Shown piece by piece: positions 1,309 to 42,715 of a stretch of 42,890 nucleotides of DNA. The DNA lies in assembly GCA_015661205.1 (NCBI GenBank), contig JACVXV010000007.1, forward strand, positions 1-42,890, in the 5' to 3' direction. The first letter of the stretch is position 1, and each line of letters begins with the position of its first letter. The notes under the pieces are model-generated. The model saw nothing but the letters and a program-made list of their open reading frames with translations. It made no database searches and had not been told where the DNA came from. This DNA is from Candidatus Brocadiaceae bacterium. Its GTDB lineage: Bacteria > Planctomycetota > Brocadiia > Brocadiales > Brocadiaceae. A program made the translations under genes and the position numbers.

Positions 1309-1995
1309 TCAGCATTTCAGCGCAAGCAAATCCAACAAGGCGTTGGATATCTCCTGTTTGGTTTCACAGCGTGATTCAACTTCTTTCTTCGCATTAATCA
1401 GGTAGGCGTAATGTTTGCCCCCGGCAATTTCATTCTGATTGTTGGCTACAACCAAATCTGACCTGTTTTCTTGCAAAGAGGTATATGCCCTTGCGATAAG
1501 TTCCTCGCCAGATATGCCTACTTCCAGTTTAAAACCGACCAGATACGTTTGTGGCCATAAGTTCCGTATCAATTTTATTACCTTGGGCGTCCTAACGAAG
1601 GTGACGGTAAGCTTGTCCTGGTTTGACGATATCTTTCCACCGCTCTGTTTTTCCGGGACATAATCCAGGACGGCCATGGCGTGGATAATTGCATTGAATG
1701 GTTTACCATTAACCGTTTGTTGAACTACCGTCAGTAAGTCATCAATCGTTTCTATCTCAATTGGGGTAAACCGGCTGGCATGGTTTTTACTCAATGAATC
1801 AGTATTGGGGATGGCGCTACCGGCGCCGTAGACAAAGGTGACTGCTGCATCGCGTTTTAAGGATTCCATAGCAATAGCAGCGCCGAGGGCGCCAGTTGAT
1901 TTATTACTGATGTACCTTACGGCGTCTATATAACCCCTGGTTGGCCCCGAGGTTATCAGGATGTTTTTCCCATCCAAATTTTTGTAAATTTGCAT
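1309..1995 (-). CDS. coaB: Phosphopantothenate-cysteine ligase domain protein (CoaB), stand-alone
   Basis: 228 aa. CoaB condenses 4'-phosphopantothenate with cysteine using a nucleotide triphosphate in coenzyme A synthesis in the cytoplasm. Near the N-terminus ILITSGPTRGYIDAVRYISN and KSTGALG match the nucleotide-binding start of the DFP/CoaB domain. HAMAVLDYVPEKQSGGKISS corresponds to the AAVADYRP...KIK region, and VGFKLE to the typical VGFAAE segment. The CoaC flavoprotein half of bifunctional CoaBC is absent, so this is a split version. The reading frame stays open upstream to 2130, but that part is the dispersed repeat. I place the start at the ATG at 1993-1995 (MQIYKNLDGK), preceded by GGGTGA. 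The start codon and first five or so codons are themselves the end of the repeat (see findings). Confidence 0.85.
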   Translation of the reverse strand: MQIYKNLDGKNILITSGPTRGYIDAVRYISNKSTGALGAAIAMESLKRDAAVTFVYGAGSAIPNTDSLSKNHASRFTPIEIETIDDLLTVVQQTVNGKPFNAIIHAMAVLDYVPEKQSGGKISSNQDKLTVTFVRTPKVIKLIRNLWPQTYLVGFKLEVGISGEELIARAYTSLQENRSDLVVANNQNEIAGGKHYAYLINAKKEVESRCETKQEISNALLDLLALKC

Positions 1996-2341
1996 TTTGT
2001 CACCCAGGGACAGATGGAAATAGTCCACCGATTTATCGGTGGGATCAGAGACCAGGATTTTTAGTCCCGTAGGGACAAAATATCGGTAGAAAAGAATGGC
2101 ATACACACATAAATGCCGTAGGCATGACATATTTAAAATCTTACTGTTCTACCAAACATATCATCCCTACGGGACTAATGCGGATTTTCTGTTTATTTTC
2201 TACCAATATTTCGTTCCTGACGGAACTTTGCAGCGCACTAATTACGCGGCAGACAGGTCAGTCGTCCCTACGGGACTTTATGATTTGTTTGCTTGGAAAC
2301 AGGCAATGAATTGCCTACCTATTAGCAGTTGCCCCTACGGG
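1983..2341. repeat. Composite hairpin-module repeat, left copy
   Basis: A run of short palindromes with a TACG/CGTA centre: 1999-2011 (degenerate), 2064-2076 GTCCCGTAGGGAC, 2113-2125 ATGCCGTAGGCAT, 2163-2175 ATCCCTACGGGAC, 2213-2226 GTTCCTGACGGAAC, 2264-2276 GTCCCTACGGGAC and 2331-2341 (half). Centres from 2070 to 2270 are about 50 nt apart. A CCACCGAT/ATCGGTGG hairpin sits at 2025-2042. Read on the minus strand, 1983-2076 matches 39242-39340 on the plus strand, and 2264-2341 matches the reverse of 39021-39088. The minus-strand part at about 2060-2135 matches 37690-37757. The element spans from the coaB start codon to the stop codon of the next gene. Confidence 0.9.
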
Positions 2342-3199
2342 TTACTTTTTCTCCTTAAGGTCTTCAAGCAATTCCTGCGCAAGCTCTCTCACCTCGTTGT
2401 CTTCATCATTAAGCGCGCCTTTAATAAGTTCCTGCGTATTTTCTCCGCGGACCTCGGCCAATGCCTCCAGTGCACTTTGGCGCACCTCTGAACTCTGGTC
2501 TTTAAGCGCAAAGGAAAGCGGTTCAATGATATTTTTGTCGCCCGTTGTTATGAGGGCGTCAATGGAACTGAGCCTGACGTCTTCGCTTGGGTCGCTGGCA
2601 AGCACCCTTGAAAGGATTTCCACCGTTCTTTTGTCTTTACTTTCGCCCAAAGCGATAACGGCGTCTTCGCGTTTGCTTGCATCACCACCTTCCAGGGCAT
2701 CCTTTGCAAGTAATTCAAATGGCATCATGTCACCCCGTCCTCTTCCTTTCTTGGGTGGCGGTGGTGGCTTTAGGCGTGACTTTTGAAGTAAATCATCATT
2801 TATCCTGTTGGCAGTATCGTCTGTTTTATTCTGTTTAATAAAAGCCAAGCTGCCTTCTTTCTTCTCGTTTGGAGTATAGACAAAGGCATAATTTTTGTCT
2901 TTCAGTATTTTGTGAACACCATCCCGTATGGGTACATCATAAAATTCAATGGTAACCGCGGTGTCGATGGAATCGCTAAGCCATATCCTTGCGCCGCTCT
3001 GTGCCATAATCTCCTTTAGAACCTTGTCCAACGGGGCATTTTTCAATTTTACTGATAGCCGTCCGCGGTCAAAGATAATGTCCGGATTTGCTTCAACGTA
3101 TTTTGTGGCTGCACAGTACGTTTGGCATTGGTTGCCCGGAGAAAAAGCGAAGCACATTGCGATAATGGTAAAAATCAATATACGTGGGTGTTGTTTCAT
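2342..3199 (-). CDS. Secreted HEAT-repeat protein with STN-like N-terminal domain
   Basis: 285 aa. The first 25-30 residues look like a signal peptide (hydrophobic ILIFTIIAMCFAFSP). Residues about 40-110 (LSVKLKNAPLDKVLKEIMAQ, then a VTIEFYDVPIRDGVHKIL segment) resemble the secretin/TonB short N-terminal domain fold. A proline-rich linker follows (KPPPPPKKGRGRG, about 144-156). Residues about 165-285 form HEAT-like repeats with recurring patterns such as DPSEDVRLSSIDAL and DQSSEVRQSALEALAEV. A periplasmic scaffold or protein-interaction role is likely; no enzymatic residues are seen. The stop codon at 2342-2344 abuts the end of the repeat element. The upstream gene ends 25 nt away, so the two may be co-transcribed. 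Confidence 0.75.
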   Translation of the reverse strand: MKQHPRILIFTIIAMCFAFSPGNQCQTYCAATKYVEANPDIIFDRGRLSVKLKNAPLDKVLKEIMAQSGARIWLSDSIDTAVTIEFYDVPIRDGVHKILKDKNYAFVYTPNEKKEGSLAFIKQNKTDDTANRINDDLLQKSRLKPPPPPKKGRGRGDMMPFELLAKDALEGGDASKREDAVIALGESKDKRTVEILSRVLASDPSEDVRLSSIDALITTGDKNIIEPLSFALKDQSSEVRQSALEALAEVRGENTQELIKGALNDEDNEVRELAQELLEDLKEKK

Positions 3200-4757: not shown

Positions 4758-4960
4758 TAAGACTACTCCTGAAATTCAAATAGTTCACCATACAAACACA
4801 TTGGCCAGGGCAAATACGGACTATGGCGTTACTGAAAACGTTTTGGGGGATACGTTCAATGTCCCTTTTTAGCGGACAACCGGCGTCTTTCCGCCTTAGC
4901 ACAAAGCTTTCTGCGCACCTTCCGTTCACAAGCCGTATACCGGAAGTCAGCGAAAAAAAA

Positions 4961-16031: not shown

Positions 16032-16357
16032 GTATGTTATCAACTAAGGGAGTTGGCATTTACTCAAAATTATAGCCAAACAAGTCGGGTTTTTGATGCT
16101 TATTCCGGTAAACACCGGGATTCGTCCAGTATTCCGACTCGTTCACACGCTCTGCGTGGGAATGCTACCTTAAATATATTTTATATGTCCAGCGCATTTG
16201 CTTACTATTGAAACAAAAAAGTTTGATGGTGTCAAAAGGTATTTGATAAATGGTCACAGACTGTATTCCTGAAAAATACCGGGAATAGACATTTTCTTGA
16301 TTTCTATCTCCCACTTTTGTATCATGCCTTCGGCCTACAAACTGGAAATGGATTGGC

Positions 16358-23829: not shown

Positions 23830-24155
23830 ATTGTCCAGCTTTCAAAGGTTATTGAGGTAATGCCTCATGCAAAACATAAAAACTTGAAACCACAGATTTC
23901 ACAGATTACACAGATTTTGTATTGGTAAGACACACCGATTATTTCAGACCCGTAAGTAGGCTCTTAGCATCTTCTCCTTCGCCGCTAAAGGAATCGGCTC
24001 GTCCGCAGAATCAGTGGGTAATAAGTAAGACTTAGGGACTGTAAATAAATAACTTTACAACTTCCGTCTAACGATTTCAGCTTCTTTTTGCAGAAAGGTC
24101 TTTTCAATCTGTGTAATCTGTGGTTCCCGTAGTTCTTTCCAACGCTTGAAAGACA
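23830..24155. other. Intergenic region with two CTGTGTAATCTGTGG-family repeats
   Basis: Between the acetyltransferase gene and the downstream end of the PAS-GGDEF-EAL gene. It holds one inverted repeat copy (23889-23919) and one direct copy (24105-24127) about 190 nt apart, which could pair as a long hairpin. No gene is seen. Confidence 0.7.
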
Positions 24156-36116: not shown

Positions 36117-36129
36117 TAAGCCCCAGAGG

Positions 36130-36319
36130 TGCGGCCTGTTTGTAGCATTCCAAGCGAATTAAGCTATTTAGCTCCATAGGAGCGACCTGTTTGTTTTATA
36201 ACGGTTTAGTTTTTTGAAAATTGGTTGTGCTTTTTAGTCCCGATAGGGACGTAAGGAAGTATTTTCGCCAAACAAAAATACAGTCCCGTAGGGACGGCTG
36301 AGATTGAGTACGCTCAATC
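36130..36319. repeat. Fragments of several repeat families, including two CCTACGG-type hairpins
   Basis: A tandem of CCCCAGAGGTGCGGCCTGTT (near 36121) and CTCCATAGGAGCGACCTGTT (near 36171) are two versions of one unit. GTCCCGATAGGGAC (36237-36250) and GTCCCGTAGGGAC (36283-36295) are hairpins of the composite family, with centres 46 nt apart. GATTGAGTACGCTCAATC (36302-36319) has the same TACG centre with fully different arms. Confidence 0.8.
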
Positions 36320-37647: not shown

Positions 37648-37757
37648 TGGCGCAGGCTTCCAGCCTGCGCTGTAGAATAATTTGATTTTGAATATGTCAT
37701 GCCTACGGCATTTATGTTTGTATACCCTTTTCTACCGATATTGTGTCCCTACGGGAC
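37648..37757. repeat. Palindromic repeats upstream of the secreted DUF11-like gene
   Basis: 37648-37674 is a GCAGGCTTCCAGCCTGC palindrome related to 1189-1256. ATGCCTACGGCAT (37699-37711) and GTCCCTACGGGAC (37745-37757) are two composite-family hairpins with centres 46 nt apart. The sequence from about 37690 to 37757 is the reverse complement of about 2064-2137, including the TTCTACCGATATT spacer. Confidence 0.88.
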
Positions 37758-37783
37758 GATTATAGAAACAAACGCTGATACTT

Positions 37784-38962: not shown

Positions 38963-39020
38963 AATGATACCGGCTTGCAGCGTGGATTTGTGGGTAATCG
39001 TTCACCCGGCTATCTGTACA

Positions 39021-39340
39021 TGCCCCGTAGGGGCAACTGCAAATAGGCAGGCAATTCAAGGAAACGAACCACAAAGTCCCGTAGGGACGTCTGATTATGT
39101 TATGCTACTCCTTGTCCTCAATATTCCTTGCAGATTGACCTCGACGAGACATTTGATGATAACCCGGCAATTCATTGCCGGAACGTGTACCCACAGCCTA
39201 TGGGTTTCATAGTAATGGCTGAGAACGCCAAACAGCCTGCCGTCCCTACGGGACTAAAAATCCCGGCCTATGCTCCCACCGATGAATCGGTGGGCTATCG
39301 CCATCTGTCCCTACGGGACAAAATGCAAATTTACAAGCTG
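39021..39340. repeat. Composite hairpin-module repeat, right copy (inverted relative to 1983-2341)
   Basis: Hairpins at 39021-39035 (TGCCCCGTAGGGGCA), 39076-39088 (GTCCCGTAGGGAC), 39242-39254 and 39307-39319 (GTCCCTACGGGAC), plus a CCCACCGAT/ATCGGTGGG hairpin at 39275-39294 and CCGGCAATTCATTGCCGG at about 39165-39182. 39242-39340 aligns with the reverse of 1983-2076, including the ATGCAAATTTACAA end. The reverse of 39021-39088 aligns with 2264-2341. The plus-strand frame 39128-39370 translated here (VPTGLKIPAYAPTDESVGY) mirrors the extra N-terminal residues upstream of coaB and is repeat-derived, not a gene. Confidence 0.9.
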
Positions 39341-39412: not shown

Positions 39413-42328
39413 CTACGCTTCCCACCGGTAAAATGAAAGGGCGCCGTTTTCCAGCGCCCATTTTTTAAAGATATCGGTCTGAACATAAATGGCTTCCTTA
39501 AACGACAAGGTATTCTTCGAGTCCTTCTTCTCCATCTCCGCCTCGAATTCGTTGACAAAGGTTTTTACCGCCTCTTTTTTGAGATACCACCCGTTTTCGG
39601 CGCCGATAAAATCCTCTTCGGTAATCATCTTCAGATTTATCAAACGCACTATCAACCGGTCAATCTTCGCCCTGAATAGCTCCTCAATGTCGCACACCAG
39701 CGATTCGTAATTGTCCTGGTCGCTGTGTAAAAATCCCAGGTAGGGGTTCAGGCCAACCGCGCGCACTGTGGCGTTTATGCGTGAAAAAAGGAGGTAGTAT
39801 CCGAAATTAAGCAGCGAATTTATCCGGTCAGGATTTCTCCGTTCCCGTTTTTTGAGATGAAAGGCCTCGTGGTCAATAAAGTTGTTCAATCTCTTATAAA
39901 TCCTCCTGGCGGCCAAACCCTCAAACCCCCGCGCCTGCTGCACGTCTCCGGCGTAATACATCTGCCGTACCAAACCTTCAATCTCCCCGATAAAAAGATG
40001 CATATCTTTCTCGTATCGCTGTTTAAAAAAAGAGATATAGTTGCGCAACTTGCCCGCAGCAAACTCCTTTGCTATACTGAGATGCTCTGTATCGGAAAGG
40101 CCGTAAAACCTCCTCCCATGCTCATAGCAAACGTCATAATGTTTTTTTGTGTCCGGTCTTATCGTCGTAATGTAATAGCCCGTGTTGAGCGTGATGGTAA
40201 AGGGAATGTTGCTGTCCGTGCATTTCCGTATGAGCGCCGTAGAGAAAACGGACTTTTCCATGACCATGATCTCGCTTATCCTTCGGAGAGGAATCGTCTC
40301 AATGATCTTCTTGTCCTTGTACATGTCCAGCGCGTCGCCGTTGAGCGACAAGAAGAGATAGGGTTCCGTAATATAGAGCGGTTTTTTTAGCAGTTTGAAG
40401 TCTTCACCATGCTCCACGACTACTGCCGATTTCTCGAACCGCATCCCCAGGAACTGAAACCCCTCCGCTATTGACCTGATTGCAGTTTTCTCCTTTTTAA
40501 TCTTCAAACCAAGCTGCGAAAGGAACGATTCCGTACCTGCCAGGACACGTTCCGCATCCTCCTTTGTCTTCGTCAGGATAATAAAGTCATCGGCATATCG
40601 CACCATTCTCACCCCGCCGGAAGGCGCGCTGTTGGTCAAATCCAGGGCGACGTCTCCCGCACCAGCCATCGGCGACGGCACAGGGGAACAACCGCCGCCG
40701 CTATTTTCAATGGTTGCCTCGTCACTGCCGCCGTTCCATTGTTTTACCCGTTCATCGAAGGCGTCCAGGTAGAGATTCGCAAGGATAGGTGAAAGCGGGC
40801 TGCCCTGGGCGAGTCCTTTTCTGCGTTCATAGCACACGCCGTTCAGTATATACCCGTGCCTGATGGATTTCAGCAGGATATCTTTTAAAACAGTATCTTT
40901 TTCCGGAATGTAATAATCGAGTTGGCGTGTCAACGTCTTCAGGTCTACAGAAGGGTAGAAGTCCTCAATATCCGATTCGAGTACATACTGGAATCCTTCT
41001 GCAATGGCCGCCTGGATGATTTCAACAGACCGCTGCCGGGAAACACCCTTCCTGCACCCGATGGATTCCTCTTCGAAAAAACGGTCAAAAACGGTAGAAA
41101 TAGTCTTCAGGAGATATTGCTGAACAATCAGGTCTCTCACCTGCAACTGTTCAACCAGCCGGTCGTCGCCCCCTTTTTTCTTTATCGTAAAGGCCGTTGC
41201 GGGCGACGGCAGGTACGTATTCCCGGTGATTTGCTGAAGGACGTTCTCCGCATAGACCTCCTCGTTGAATGGAAACATTTCCGTCTCCGACAGGGATTGC
41301 AGCGCGTTATCGTATCTGTCCACCACGTCGTTGATAACGGATACTATCGCCTTCTTTGCGGGAAAAAAACCCGTAAAATAGCCCGGCGAATCCCCGTGCG
41401 CCAGGTAATATCCCTGTGAATTGGAAAGCTTCGTCCCGGCATGGAGCTCGCTTCCCAGTATCAAAAACGGCAGGAAGTCATGAAACCTCCCCTTTATATA
41501 GAGCTTCCCCACGCACCCGTTAATGTATTGCGTATGGCCGCCTTGAGACCGTGAGCCATGCCTGATTTCCGTATAATTCCAATAATAGGGGAGGATAGAA
41601 AACAGGTCGTCCCTGCTGTGATAAACAATCTCCCTTCCCAACAACCTCGAAAACCGCCTTTCGAATGACTTAATGAAGGCAACCTGGCTGATGTAGGTGC
41701 GCGACTTGCCTTTCACGGCCTTAAAGGGAAACGGCGTTAAAAACTCCAGGCACATCTCCCCATCCCCTTTGTGTATGCCATGCTCAGCGGCAACCATTTC
41801 GAATGAGCGTTCTTCAATTTCAGCCATTTCGACCATTTCAAAATTCCTGCCGGTCTCCGGGTCTGCGAGATAGGCACGAAATGCATCCCTCCACTGCCGG
41901 GCGTATCCTTCCCCTTTCCTGAAAAAGTATATTTCAAGCGGGATCGTGTCTGAAACCTGCATCCTGAAATTATGCCTCCTGTTCTTCACGTGAAACACCG
42001 GCAGCAGTTCGTCATCACTTTCCTCCGCGGAACGGTCACCCCGGATGGTTTCTTTCTTATTTTCGTTATCGCACGGCGTCACACCCTGATCAGGGGATAG
42101 TGGGCATTCCTGTTTTATGTTGGGAGGGATTGCTAAGACGTCGCCCCGTTCCGGTGAAGGCGGCAGGGGGGATAGGGGGGAGAGAGACGAGGAAACCCCT
42201 TTTATTATTGCCTGAAACACGGAAAAGGGATGCGCCGTCATCGCCGGCAATGAGCGGATATTAACCAGCTTCACGCAGAGGCGGCGCCAGTGCAGGCCGG
42301 AAAAGGGATGTGAACCGTCAGATTTCAT
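39413..42328 (-). CDS. Cas6-reverse transcriptase-Cas1 fusion protein (CRISPR spacer acquisition from RNA)
   Basis: 971 aa from the ATG at 42328. Cas6 part, about 1-345: LEFLTPFPFKAVKGK and the glycine-rich C-terminal block GKLYIKGRFHDFLPFLILGS followed by ELHAGTKLSNSQGYY (271-308). RT part, about 375-635: DIEDFYPSVD (first Asp 453), QGSPLSPILANLYLD (from 508), VRYADDF (YADD 578-581), LGLKIKKEKT and GFQFLGMRF. Cas1 part, about 650-971: catalytic Glu803 (FEGLAARRIYKRL), His868 (YLGFLHSDQD) and Asp880 (CDIEELFR). All three activities look possible. Two low-complexity insertions occur, at 48-107 and 532-572. Such fusions belong to Type III systems, process crRNA and acquire spacers from RNA. No cas2, effector gene or array is beside it. 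The frame extends to 42502, but that part is repeat sequence. No strong ribosome-binding site is seen. Confidence 0.93.
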   Translation of the reverse strand: MKSDGSHPFSGLHWRRLCVKLVNIRSLPAMTAHPFSVFQAIIKGVSSSLSPLSPLPPSPERGDVLAIPPNIKQECPLSPDQGVTPCDNENKKETIRGDRSAEESDDELLPVFHVKNRRHNFRMQVSDTIPLEIYFFRKGEGYARQWRDAFRAYLADPETGRNFEMVEMAEIEERSFEMVAAEHGIHKGDGEMCLEFLTPFPFKAVKGKSRTYISQVAFIKSFERRFSRLLGREIVYHSRDDLFSILPYYWNYTEIRHGSRSQGGHTQYINGCVGKLYIKGRFHDFLPFLILGSELHAGTKLSNSQGYYLAHGDSPGYFTGFFPAKKAIVSVINDVVDRYDNALQSLSETEMFPFNEEVYAENVLQQITGNTYLPSPATAFTIKKKGGDDRLVEQLQVRDLIVQQYLLKTISTVFDRFFEEESIGCRKGVSRQRSVEIIQAAIAEGFQYVLESDIEDFYPSVDLKTLTRQLDYYIPEKDTVLKDILLKSIRHGYILNGVCYERRKGLAQGSPLSPILANLYLDAFDERVKQWNGGSDEATIENSGGGCSPVPSPMAGAGDVALDLTNSAPSGGVRMVRYADDFIILTKTKEDAERVLAGTESFLSQLGLKIKKEKTAIRSIAEGFQFLGMRFEKSAVVVEHGEDFKLLKKPLYITEPYLFLSLNGDALDMYKDKKIIETIPLRRISEIMVMEKSVFSTALIRKCTDSNIPFTITLNTGYYITTIRPDTKKHYDVCYEHGRRFYGLSDTEHLSIAKEFAAGKLRNYISFFKQRYEKDMHLFIGEIEGLVRQMYYAGDVQQARGFEGLAARRIYKRLNNFIDHEAFHLKKRERRNPDRINSLLNFGYYLLFSRINATVRAVGLNPYLGFLHSDQDNYESLVCDIEELFRAKIDRLIVRLINLKMITEEDFIGAENGWYLKKEAVKTFVNEFEAEMEKKDSKNTLSFKEAIYVQTDIFKKWALENGALSFYRWEA

Positions 42329-42715
42329 AATGCTGCAAAGCCGTAACCAAAAAAAGGATAATTGAAGCAACGGTTCACCGCAGAGGGCGCAGAGAACAAC
42401 GTTTTGGCAACTCGAAACCCGGAACCAAAACCGTAGCCACCGTTTCAGTCCCAGCCGGCTGGGATGTCCTTTCGGACTACCCTTTTTAAGTTGTTGCGAC
42501 AAAAGGGGTTAAATCGCCAAAATTCAGAACCTCCCCCTAATGAAGTTTTGATTTTTACCGTTTTTCCGTTATATGACATAAGCATATCCATCGTCAAGAC
42601 CCATCATCTTTGCGCCCTTTGCGGTGATTTCTGTTTCTGGTTTGAGGTTTCGGGTTTTATGTTGTAGGGCATCTGAGCGGCGTGCAGGGTAAAGTGGATA
42701 GGGTTACGATGGTAG
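42329..42715. other. Upstream region of the Cas6-RT-Cas1 gene with ACCGCAGAGGGCGCAGAG repeats
   Basis: CACCGCAGAGGGCGCAGAG at about 42376-42395 and an inverted partner GCGCCCTTTGCGGTGA at about 42611-42626 could form a large hairpin. A related ACCGCAGAGAACGCAGAG lies at 21956-21974. There is no CRISPR repeat, leader or cas2 frame in this 387-nt stretch. An open frame through 42502 in phase with the Cas gene is made of repeat sequence. Confidence 0.65.

Follow-up and report, generated by a model that had tools for sequence, protein, structure and literature searches.

Hairpin-TAG repeats in a Candidatus Brocadiaceae genome are probable REP/MITE-like units associated with TnpA transposases of subclass 1.2

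Hairpin repeats in the window

The window, i.e. the whole 42.9-kb stretch of the Candidatus Brocadiaceae genome that was analyzed, harbors a hairpin array at positions 1983-2341. Its hairpin centers at 2070, 2119, 2169, 2219 and 2270, with a spacing of about 50 nt, were confirmed from the sequence as given in the initial annotation. The array is a composite of three sub-families, labelled A, B and C, in which A is fused with B and C (Table 1). B and C share with A its terminal GTCCC hairpins at 2064-2076 and 2264-2276, and the former, located within the core unit 2062-2092, is the one shared by A and C. A second copy of the composite is present in the same genome (contig C213, L070). The core unit consists of a 5-bp hairpin followed by TAG 10 nt further on (complement CTA-N10-hairpin), so that the full anatomy reads 5-bp hairpin, 3-4-nt loop, linker of about 10 nt (consensus GAMATRTTWR) and TAG. 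Not all hairpins previously assigned to this family hold in the form described. The ATCCC/GGGAC hairpin is present but forms only four of five pairs, with an A opposite a C, and GATTGAG/CTCAATC at 36302 was excluded, as it has neither linker nor TAG. The proposed constant TAC or TACG center holds locally but is not general, since the loops on the TAG strand read GTA, GAA, GGA, ATA and others near tnpA genes elsewhere.

Further hairpins of the window are located at 36283, 37699, 37745, 39021, 39076, 39242 and 39306. The only match of the window to reach an Rfam gathering score was RF01687 (Acido-Lenti-1) at 39275-39320, with 40.1 bits compared to a threshold of 37 (cmscan). The sub-family C copy at 1998-2076 stayed below this score, and no part of 1983-2341 reached it. 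Units of the type found at 36171-36194 flank tnpA at three loci (L147, L149 and L150), tandem 50-nt units like 2197-2228 recur in other family A copies, and the sub-family B series of 2264-2345 also flanks the subclass 1.2 tnpA of the source genome.

Several features of the window lie outside these families. A 1029-aa ORF at 39413-42502 on the minus strand shows weak Cas6, reverse transcriptase and Cas1 domains, i.e. a Cas6-RT-Cas1 fusion. A palindrome CGTAGGGACACGG..CCGTGTCCCTACAT occurs at 16357, 17405 and 17898, and the same repeat surrounds and interrupts the class 2 Y1 gene L005 (G000:C285) of the source genome. A series of ACCACAGATTTCACAGATT repeats is found at 23878 and 30753, and a 63-bp repeat containing CCAAGCTGGAGCTTGG at 4953 and 29486.

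Table 1. Hairpins and repeat units of the window. R1, covariance model of tnpA-flanking units from other genomes.
Feature	Position	Strand	Support
Sub-family C, Acido-Lenti-1-like: degenerate outer hairpin, CCACCGATTTATCGGTGG at 2025-2042, GTCCC hairpin 2064-2076	about 1998-2076	-	sequence
Core unit: GTCCC-GTA-GGGAC, 10-nt linker AAAATATCGG, TAG, AAA	2062-2092	+	R1 33 bits, E 1.1e-5, best of window
Hairpin GTCCC-GTA-GGGAC	2064-2076		
Family A central hairpin ATGCC-GTA-GGCAT, no TAG at 10 nt; slot kept in genome copies	2111-2138	+	R1 18.2 bits
Hairpin ATGCC-GTA-GGCAT	2113-2125		
Unit with ATCCC/GGGAC hairpin (4/5 pairs), CTA at 11 nt	2146-2177	-	R1 20.8 bits
Hairpin ATCCC-TAC-GGGAC	2163-2175		
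Family A tandem unit of about 50 nt: GTTCC/GGAAC hairpin, GAAATATTGG linker, TAG	2197-2228	-	R1 26.5 bits, E 4e-4
Hairpin GTTCC-TGAC-GGAAC	2213-2226		
Sub-family B: GTCCC hairpin 2264-2276, inner palindrome CAGGCAATGAATTGCCT, CTA-N9-GCCCC hairpin	2264-2345	-	sequence
Hairpin GTCCC-TAC-GGGAC	2264-2276		
Unit with imperfect GCCCC-type stem, CGGCCTGTTTGTAG linker	36118-36148	+	R1 27.2 bits, E 2.7e-4
Unit GCTCC-ATA-GGAGC + GACCTGTTTGT, truncated ahead of TAG	36171-36194	+	R1 22.1 bits
GTCCC-GTA-GGGAC hairpin + GGCTGA, sub-family B inner-hairpin type	36283-36298	+	R1 12.5 bits, weak; sequence
Truncated family A: ATGCC hairpin 37699-37711, core unit 37729-37759 (GTCCC hairpin, N10, TAG)	37691-37759	-	R1 29.1 bits, E 9.5e-5
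Sub-family B copy, inner palindrome degenerate	39020-39091	+	R1 15.6 and 12.5 bits, weak; sequence
Sub-family C copy, intact	39242-39320	+	39275-39320 matches RF01687 (cmscan)

Family A in the source genome

The module pattern CTACCNATATTNNNNNCCTACGG, with up to two mismatches allowed, gave 107 matches in the 3.89-Mb genome compared to two for the reversed pattern; its occurrence far exceeds chance. A search for direct repeats at 25 nt did not pick up the family. A copy of family A is composed of one to three units of about 50 nt (5-bp hairpin, GAAATATTGG, TAG, about 24 nt), an ATGCC-TAC-GGCAT hairpin, an inverted unit and an A-rich tail. The inverted right unit reads CTA-CCGATATTTT-GTCCCTACGGGAC, followed by the short tail, and many copies consist of this right unit alone. 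The family is nearly restricted to this genome, as none of 32 family relatives harbors more than seven copies compared to the 107 found here. Among the right units, 65 of 68 are intergenic, i.e. located outside ORFs of at least 120 aa, and their orientation between neighboring genes on the same strand shows no bias (23 vs 21). In a sample of 60 stretches of this genome, the distance from hairpin to TAG was 10 nt in 145 cases and 9 nt in 81, above a background of about 44.

Two other readings of these copies were discarded. Terminators were rejected, as one orientation carries an A-rich tail instead of a T-run and copies show no preferred orientation with respect to genes. An interpretation of the chained composites as 5'-truncated retroelements with an A-rich tail was dropped, because right units standing alone, units paired in inverted orientation and units that flank tnpA suit REPs better.

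Covariation of the hairpin stems

To obtain the covariance model R1, 64 tnpA-flanking units were taken from other genomes, and the source genome was left out. In the window it ranked the core unit 2062-2092 first (E 1.1e-5), followed by 37729-37759, 36118-36148, 2197-2228, 36171-36194, 2146-2177 and 2111-2138. On the whole genome it produced 123 matches at E ≤0.1 among 150 candidates scored, many of which form inverted pairs 130-160 bp apart.

As selection by pairing had to be avoided, units near tnpA were picked by linker and TAG alone; 52 of 76 nevertheless showed five of five pairs. Covariation, for which the initial annotation had suggested a statistical test, was assessed in 36 sequences selected in this way, one per locus, and the stems covary. 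Paired cells amounted to 82.2% compared to 65.8% in shuffled alignments, double changes to 33 compared to 11.5, and none of 500 shuffles equaled either measure. Kinship among the sequences can inflate such a shuffle test, so more weight is carried by a second control, in which structures slid by 1-3 columns had at most 47% of cells paired. The compensatory arm changes that had been read as a sign of selection are thus statistically real across genomes. Within this genome, however, most of the arm differences correspond to fixed positions in a composite that has been copied, which indicates inheritance rather than repeated selection.

Transposase genes of the source genome

The initial annotation had proposed a search for a TnpA/RAYT transposase. 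Five PF01797 genes (L001 to L005) were found, one of them a tnpA of subclass 1.2. This gene, L001 (G000:C18), encodes an IS200-type protein (NF033573) and is embedded in hairpins of types B and C. Its motif YIENQENHH together with WQ assigns it by signature to the TnpA_Y1 subclass 1.2 of Quentin et al. 2018 (PMC6006769). Residues W95, Q96, Y115, Q119, H122 and H123 are invariant across 11 aligned proteins including L001 (Y---Q--HH, W then Q; core protein of about 148 aa). Relatives of TnpA in the PDB include ISHp608 and other IS200-family transposases.

L002 to L004 are REP-associated tyrosine transposases (NF047646); L005 resembles them but does not reach the cut-off. These class 2 RAYTs were rejected as mobilizers of the hairpin-TAG units, since the palindrome family that goes with each of them is a different one and class 2 loci show no spacing peak. 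L002 (G000:C153) is surrounded by a classic REPIN, GTAGCTCAGGGCTTCAGCCCTGA ... TCAAACCTGAAGGTTTGAGCTAC, near a family A composite. In L003 and L005 (G000:C168 and C285), the Y1 transposase genes themselves contain in-frame insertions of palindromes of the cognate family, an arrangement reported for subclass 2.4.

L001 is the only subclass 1.2 tnpA of the assembly, which is 96.7% complete in 292 contigs. It is flanked by the 9-nt B/C arrangement, not by family A linkers. Neither a cognate tnpA of family A nor a TnpA of the FAVK type, the type found at loci with the 10-nt TAGAAA arrangement, was found in this assembly. Family A is either an orphan or served by L001, the sole subclass 1.2 gene, which bears the related B/C arrangement. 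Relatives often harbor tnpA fragments in a degraded state.

Association with subclass 1.2 tnpA in other genomes

In the description by Quentin et al. 2018 (PMC6006769), subclass 1.2 generally has no terminal IS200 structures, and no REP is listed for it; the automatic search of that study relied on GT[AG]G at the hairpin foot. This motif was present at the foot of none of 262 units analyzed here. Hairpin-N9/10-TAG units were located at 105 of 122 subclass 1.2 loci, which contradicts the published description of the subclass with respect to REPs and terminal hairpins, but not its protein signature. Hairpin proximity was assessed in a set of 44 loci, two of which are duplicate fetches. Perfect hairpins of at least 5 bp were located within 70 nt of the tnpA start in 38 of 44, no more than 60 nt from the stop in 37 of 44 and at both ends in 31 of 44, compared to a background of 17% per random window. 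A further 80 loci were obtained from a scan of named genomes of Bacteroidetes, Ignavibacteria, Verrucomicrobia, Acidobacteria, Chloroflexi, Neomarinimicrobiota and Desulfonema; these are the best matches to one query and not a balanced sample, with Cyanobacteria absent. Overall, the units flank subclass 1.2 tnpA in the phylum of the window and in at least six other phyla.

Within 350 bp on either side of the 122 genes, the distance from hairpin to TAG was 10 nt in 216 cases and 9 nt in 53, against about 13 at other distances. No such peak was observed at 30 class 2 RAYT loci, with none at 9 nt and two at 10 nt, and GTRG was located within 8 nt of 41 of 272 hairpins near class 2 genes. Most units (201 of 262) are aimed at tnpA from both sides in an inverted arrangement, and their stem and linker differ from genome to genome. 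TnpAs of the FAVK type nearly always show 10 nt and TAGAAA, and those of the F[SAG]TK type often 9 nt and TAGCCC, together with a large hairpin.

Among 294 genomes of the same phylum, L001-type TnpA was found in 77 and RF01687 in 78. Both are present in 64 genomes, one alone in 13 and 14, respectively, and neither in 203 (odds ratio 71, p 2e-37, Fisher test uncorrected for phylogeny). In 119 genomes in which class 2 RAYTs were also searched, RF01687 tracks subclass 1.2 (odds ratio 111) far more closely than class 2 (odds ratio 4.8). RF01687-like matches adjoin most of 20 tnpA genes examined, and 21 of the 22 R1-positive genomes of the phylum contain a subclass 1.2 tnpA.

Interpretation of the hairpin-TAG units

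The hairpin-TAG unit is common to the array and to the flanks of subclass 1.2 tnpA genes, with which Acido-Lenti-1 co-occurs. The repeats are thus best read as a REP/MITE-like family associated with the Y1/HUH transposase TnpA of subclass 1.2 (Y---Q--HH), a reading to which we assign a probability of about 83%. Of the two models put forward in the initial annotation, that of REP/MITE-like elements and an IS200/IS605-type TnpA finds strong support in anatomy, spacing, covariation and co-occurrence; mobilization itself is the part that we infer. Its other model, in which the hairpins are transcribed and act as small structured RNAs, as the Rfam sRNA label implies, gained no support. Weinberg et al. 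2010 (PMC2864571) list the Acido-Lenti-1 motif as a probable RNA, 39275-39320 exceeds the RF01687 gathering score and covariation fits an RNA too. However, copies occur in both orientations with respect to neighboring genes on the same strand (23 vs 21), paired units are inverted around tnpA and their presence follows one transposase subclass. Together these features favor DNA, and the overlapping Rfam family itself behaves as tnpA-flanking DNA, which leaves a function as RNA very improbable.

Equally improbable is that the hairpins pre-exist for another reason and serve as landing sites beside which subclass 1.2 tnpA inserts without moving them. Certain IS elements such as ISPpu9 are described as targeting REPs (PMC8450116), and the observation as such amounts to proximity only. 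Against this, units are located on both sides of tnpA, inverted and at a fixed distance, with a stem and linker that vary by genome, as expected of ends that co-evolve with an enzyme, and their co-occurrence with tnpA is tight. It also seems unlikely that the units are simple remnants of IS ends without a REP-like life, i.e. decayed IS200/IS605 copies or PATE-like MITEs derived from them. TnpA does score as IS200 family (NF033573; PF01797), inverted pairs in which a short spacer replaces tnpA resemble internal deletions, and degraded tnpA fragments are frequent in relatives. Decay does not fit the high copy number at one or no tnpA per genome, nor flanks that are inverted repeats of each other. 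Arrays of 50-nt units in tandem, half-units on their own and chained composites are features of REPs and BIMEs.

In single-stranded DNA, IS200/IS605 transposases bind to subterminal hairpins, and guide bases 5' of the hairpin select the sites at which they cut (PMC5934647, PMC8266576). For REP/MITE-like units of subclass 1.2, TnpA would by analogy bind the 5-bp hairpin in single-stranded DNA, and the TAG 10 nt 3' of it may be the cleavage or recognition site. Movement of the units in trans by TnpA could give rise to the scattered single units as well as to the inverted pairs, the tandem arrays of 50-nt units and the chained composites. Relatives contain a dispersed half-element of 78 bp in which hairpin-N10-TAG is followed by 24 nt, a second hairpin and another 6-8 nt; where a copy carries tnpA, the gene starts at about the end point of this half-element. 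As the half-element ends 6-8 nt past the second hairpin and not at TAG, TAG may serve for recognition and not for cleavage, and the true element ends may adjoin the second hairpin. Length differences between genomes G292 and G307 have junctions at or near hairpin+10, which are not clean and remain ambiguous. For an empty-site comparison of G106 the relatives were too diverged.

Beyond this genome, subclass 1.2 TnpA probably has its own REP super-family, marked by TAG ten bases 3' of the hairpin instead of GTAG at its foot and distributed over at least seven phyla, with Acido-Lenti-1 as a branch and not an RNA gene. No earlier report of a hairpin-TAG repeat partner for subclass 1.2 was found in the open-access PMC literature. 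With the hairpin-TAG units, a transposase subclass that was described without a partner repeat gains one, whose anatomy (hairpin, 10 nt, TAG) is precise and can be tested, and the spread of REP-like repeats becomes testable in a new enzyme group. The units would also explain hairpin clutter in genomes of several phyla and suggest that the Rfam RNA family Acido-Lenti-1 be re-examined as mobile DNA.

Comparison with known systems

PATEs, the palindrome-associated transposable elements of haloarchaea, are non-autonomous palindromic derivatives of IS200/IS605-type elements. The units analyzed here are likewise palindromic and non-autonomous, a likeness at the level of description. Sub-family C corresponds to the Acido-Lenti-1 motif (39275-39320), with a large hairpin, CTA, 9 nt and a 5-bp hairpin; RF01687 is filed as an sRNA, whereas here it behaves as tnpA-flanking DNA and as one sub-type of a wider hairpin-TAG unit. 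With IS200/IS605 elements (IS608 and ISDra2; TnpA subclass 1.1) the system shares a Y1/HUH TnpA recognized by the same Pfam and NCBIfam models and subterminal hairpins near the gene. It differs from them in flanking units that are inverted copies of one another and mostly lack tnpA, and in the additional HH of the Y motif. The REP/REPIN systems with TnpA_REP (RAYT, class 2) of E. coli and Stenotrophomonas are similar in their short intergenic palindromes of high copy number, present as inverted pairs and arrays, and in repeats that adjoin a low-copy Y1/HUH transposase gene, each transposase having its own family. As in a REPtron, tnpA is flanked by its repeat, which is dispersed, of high copy number and mostly intergenic. 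Unlike REPs and REPINs, the units described here carry no GT[AG]G at the foot but TAG 10 nt on the 3' side, and their transposase belongs to subclass 1.2 (Y---Q--HH) instead of RAYT class 2 (Y---NP).
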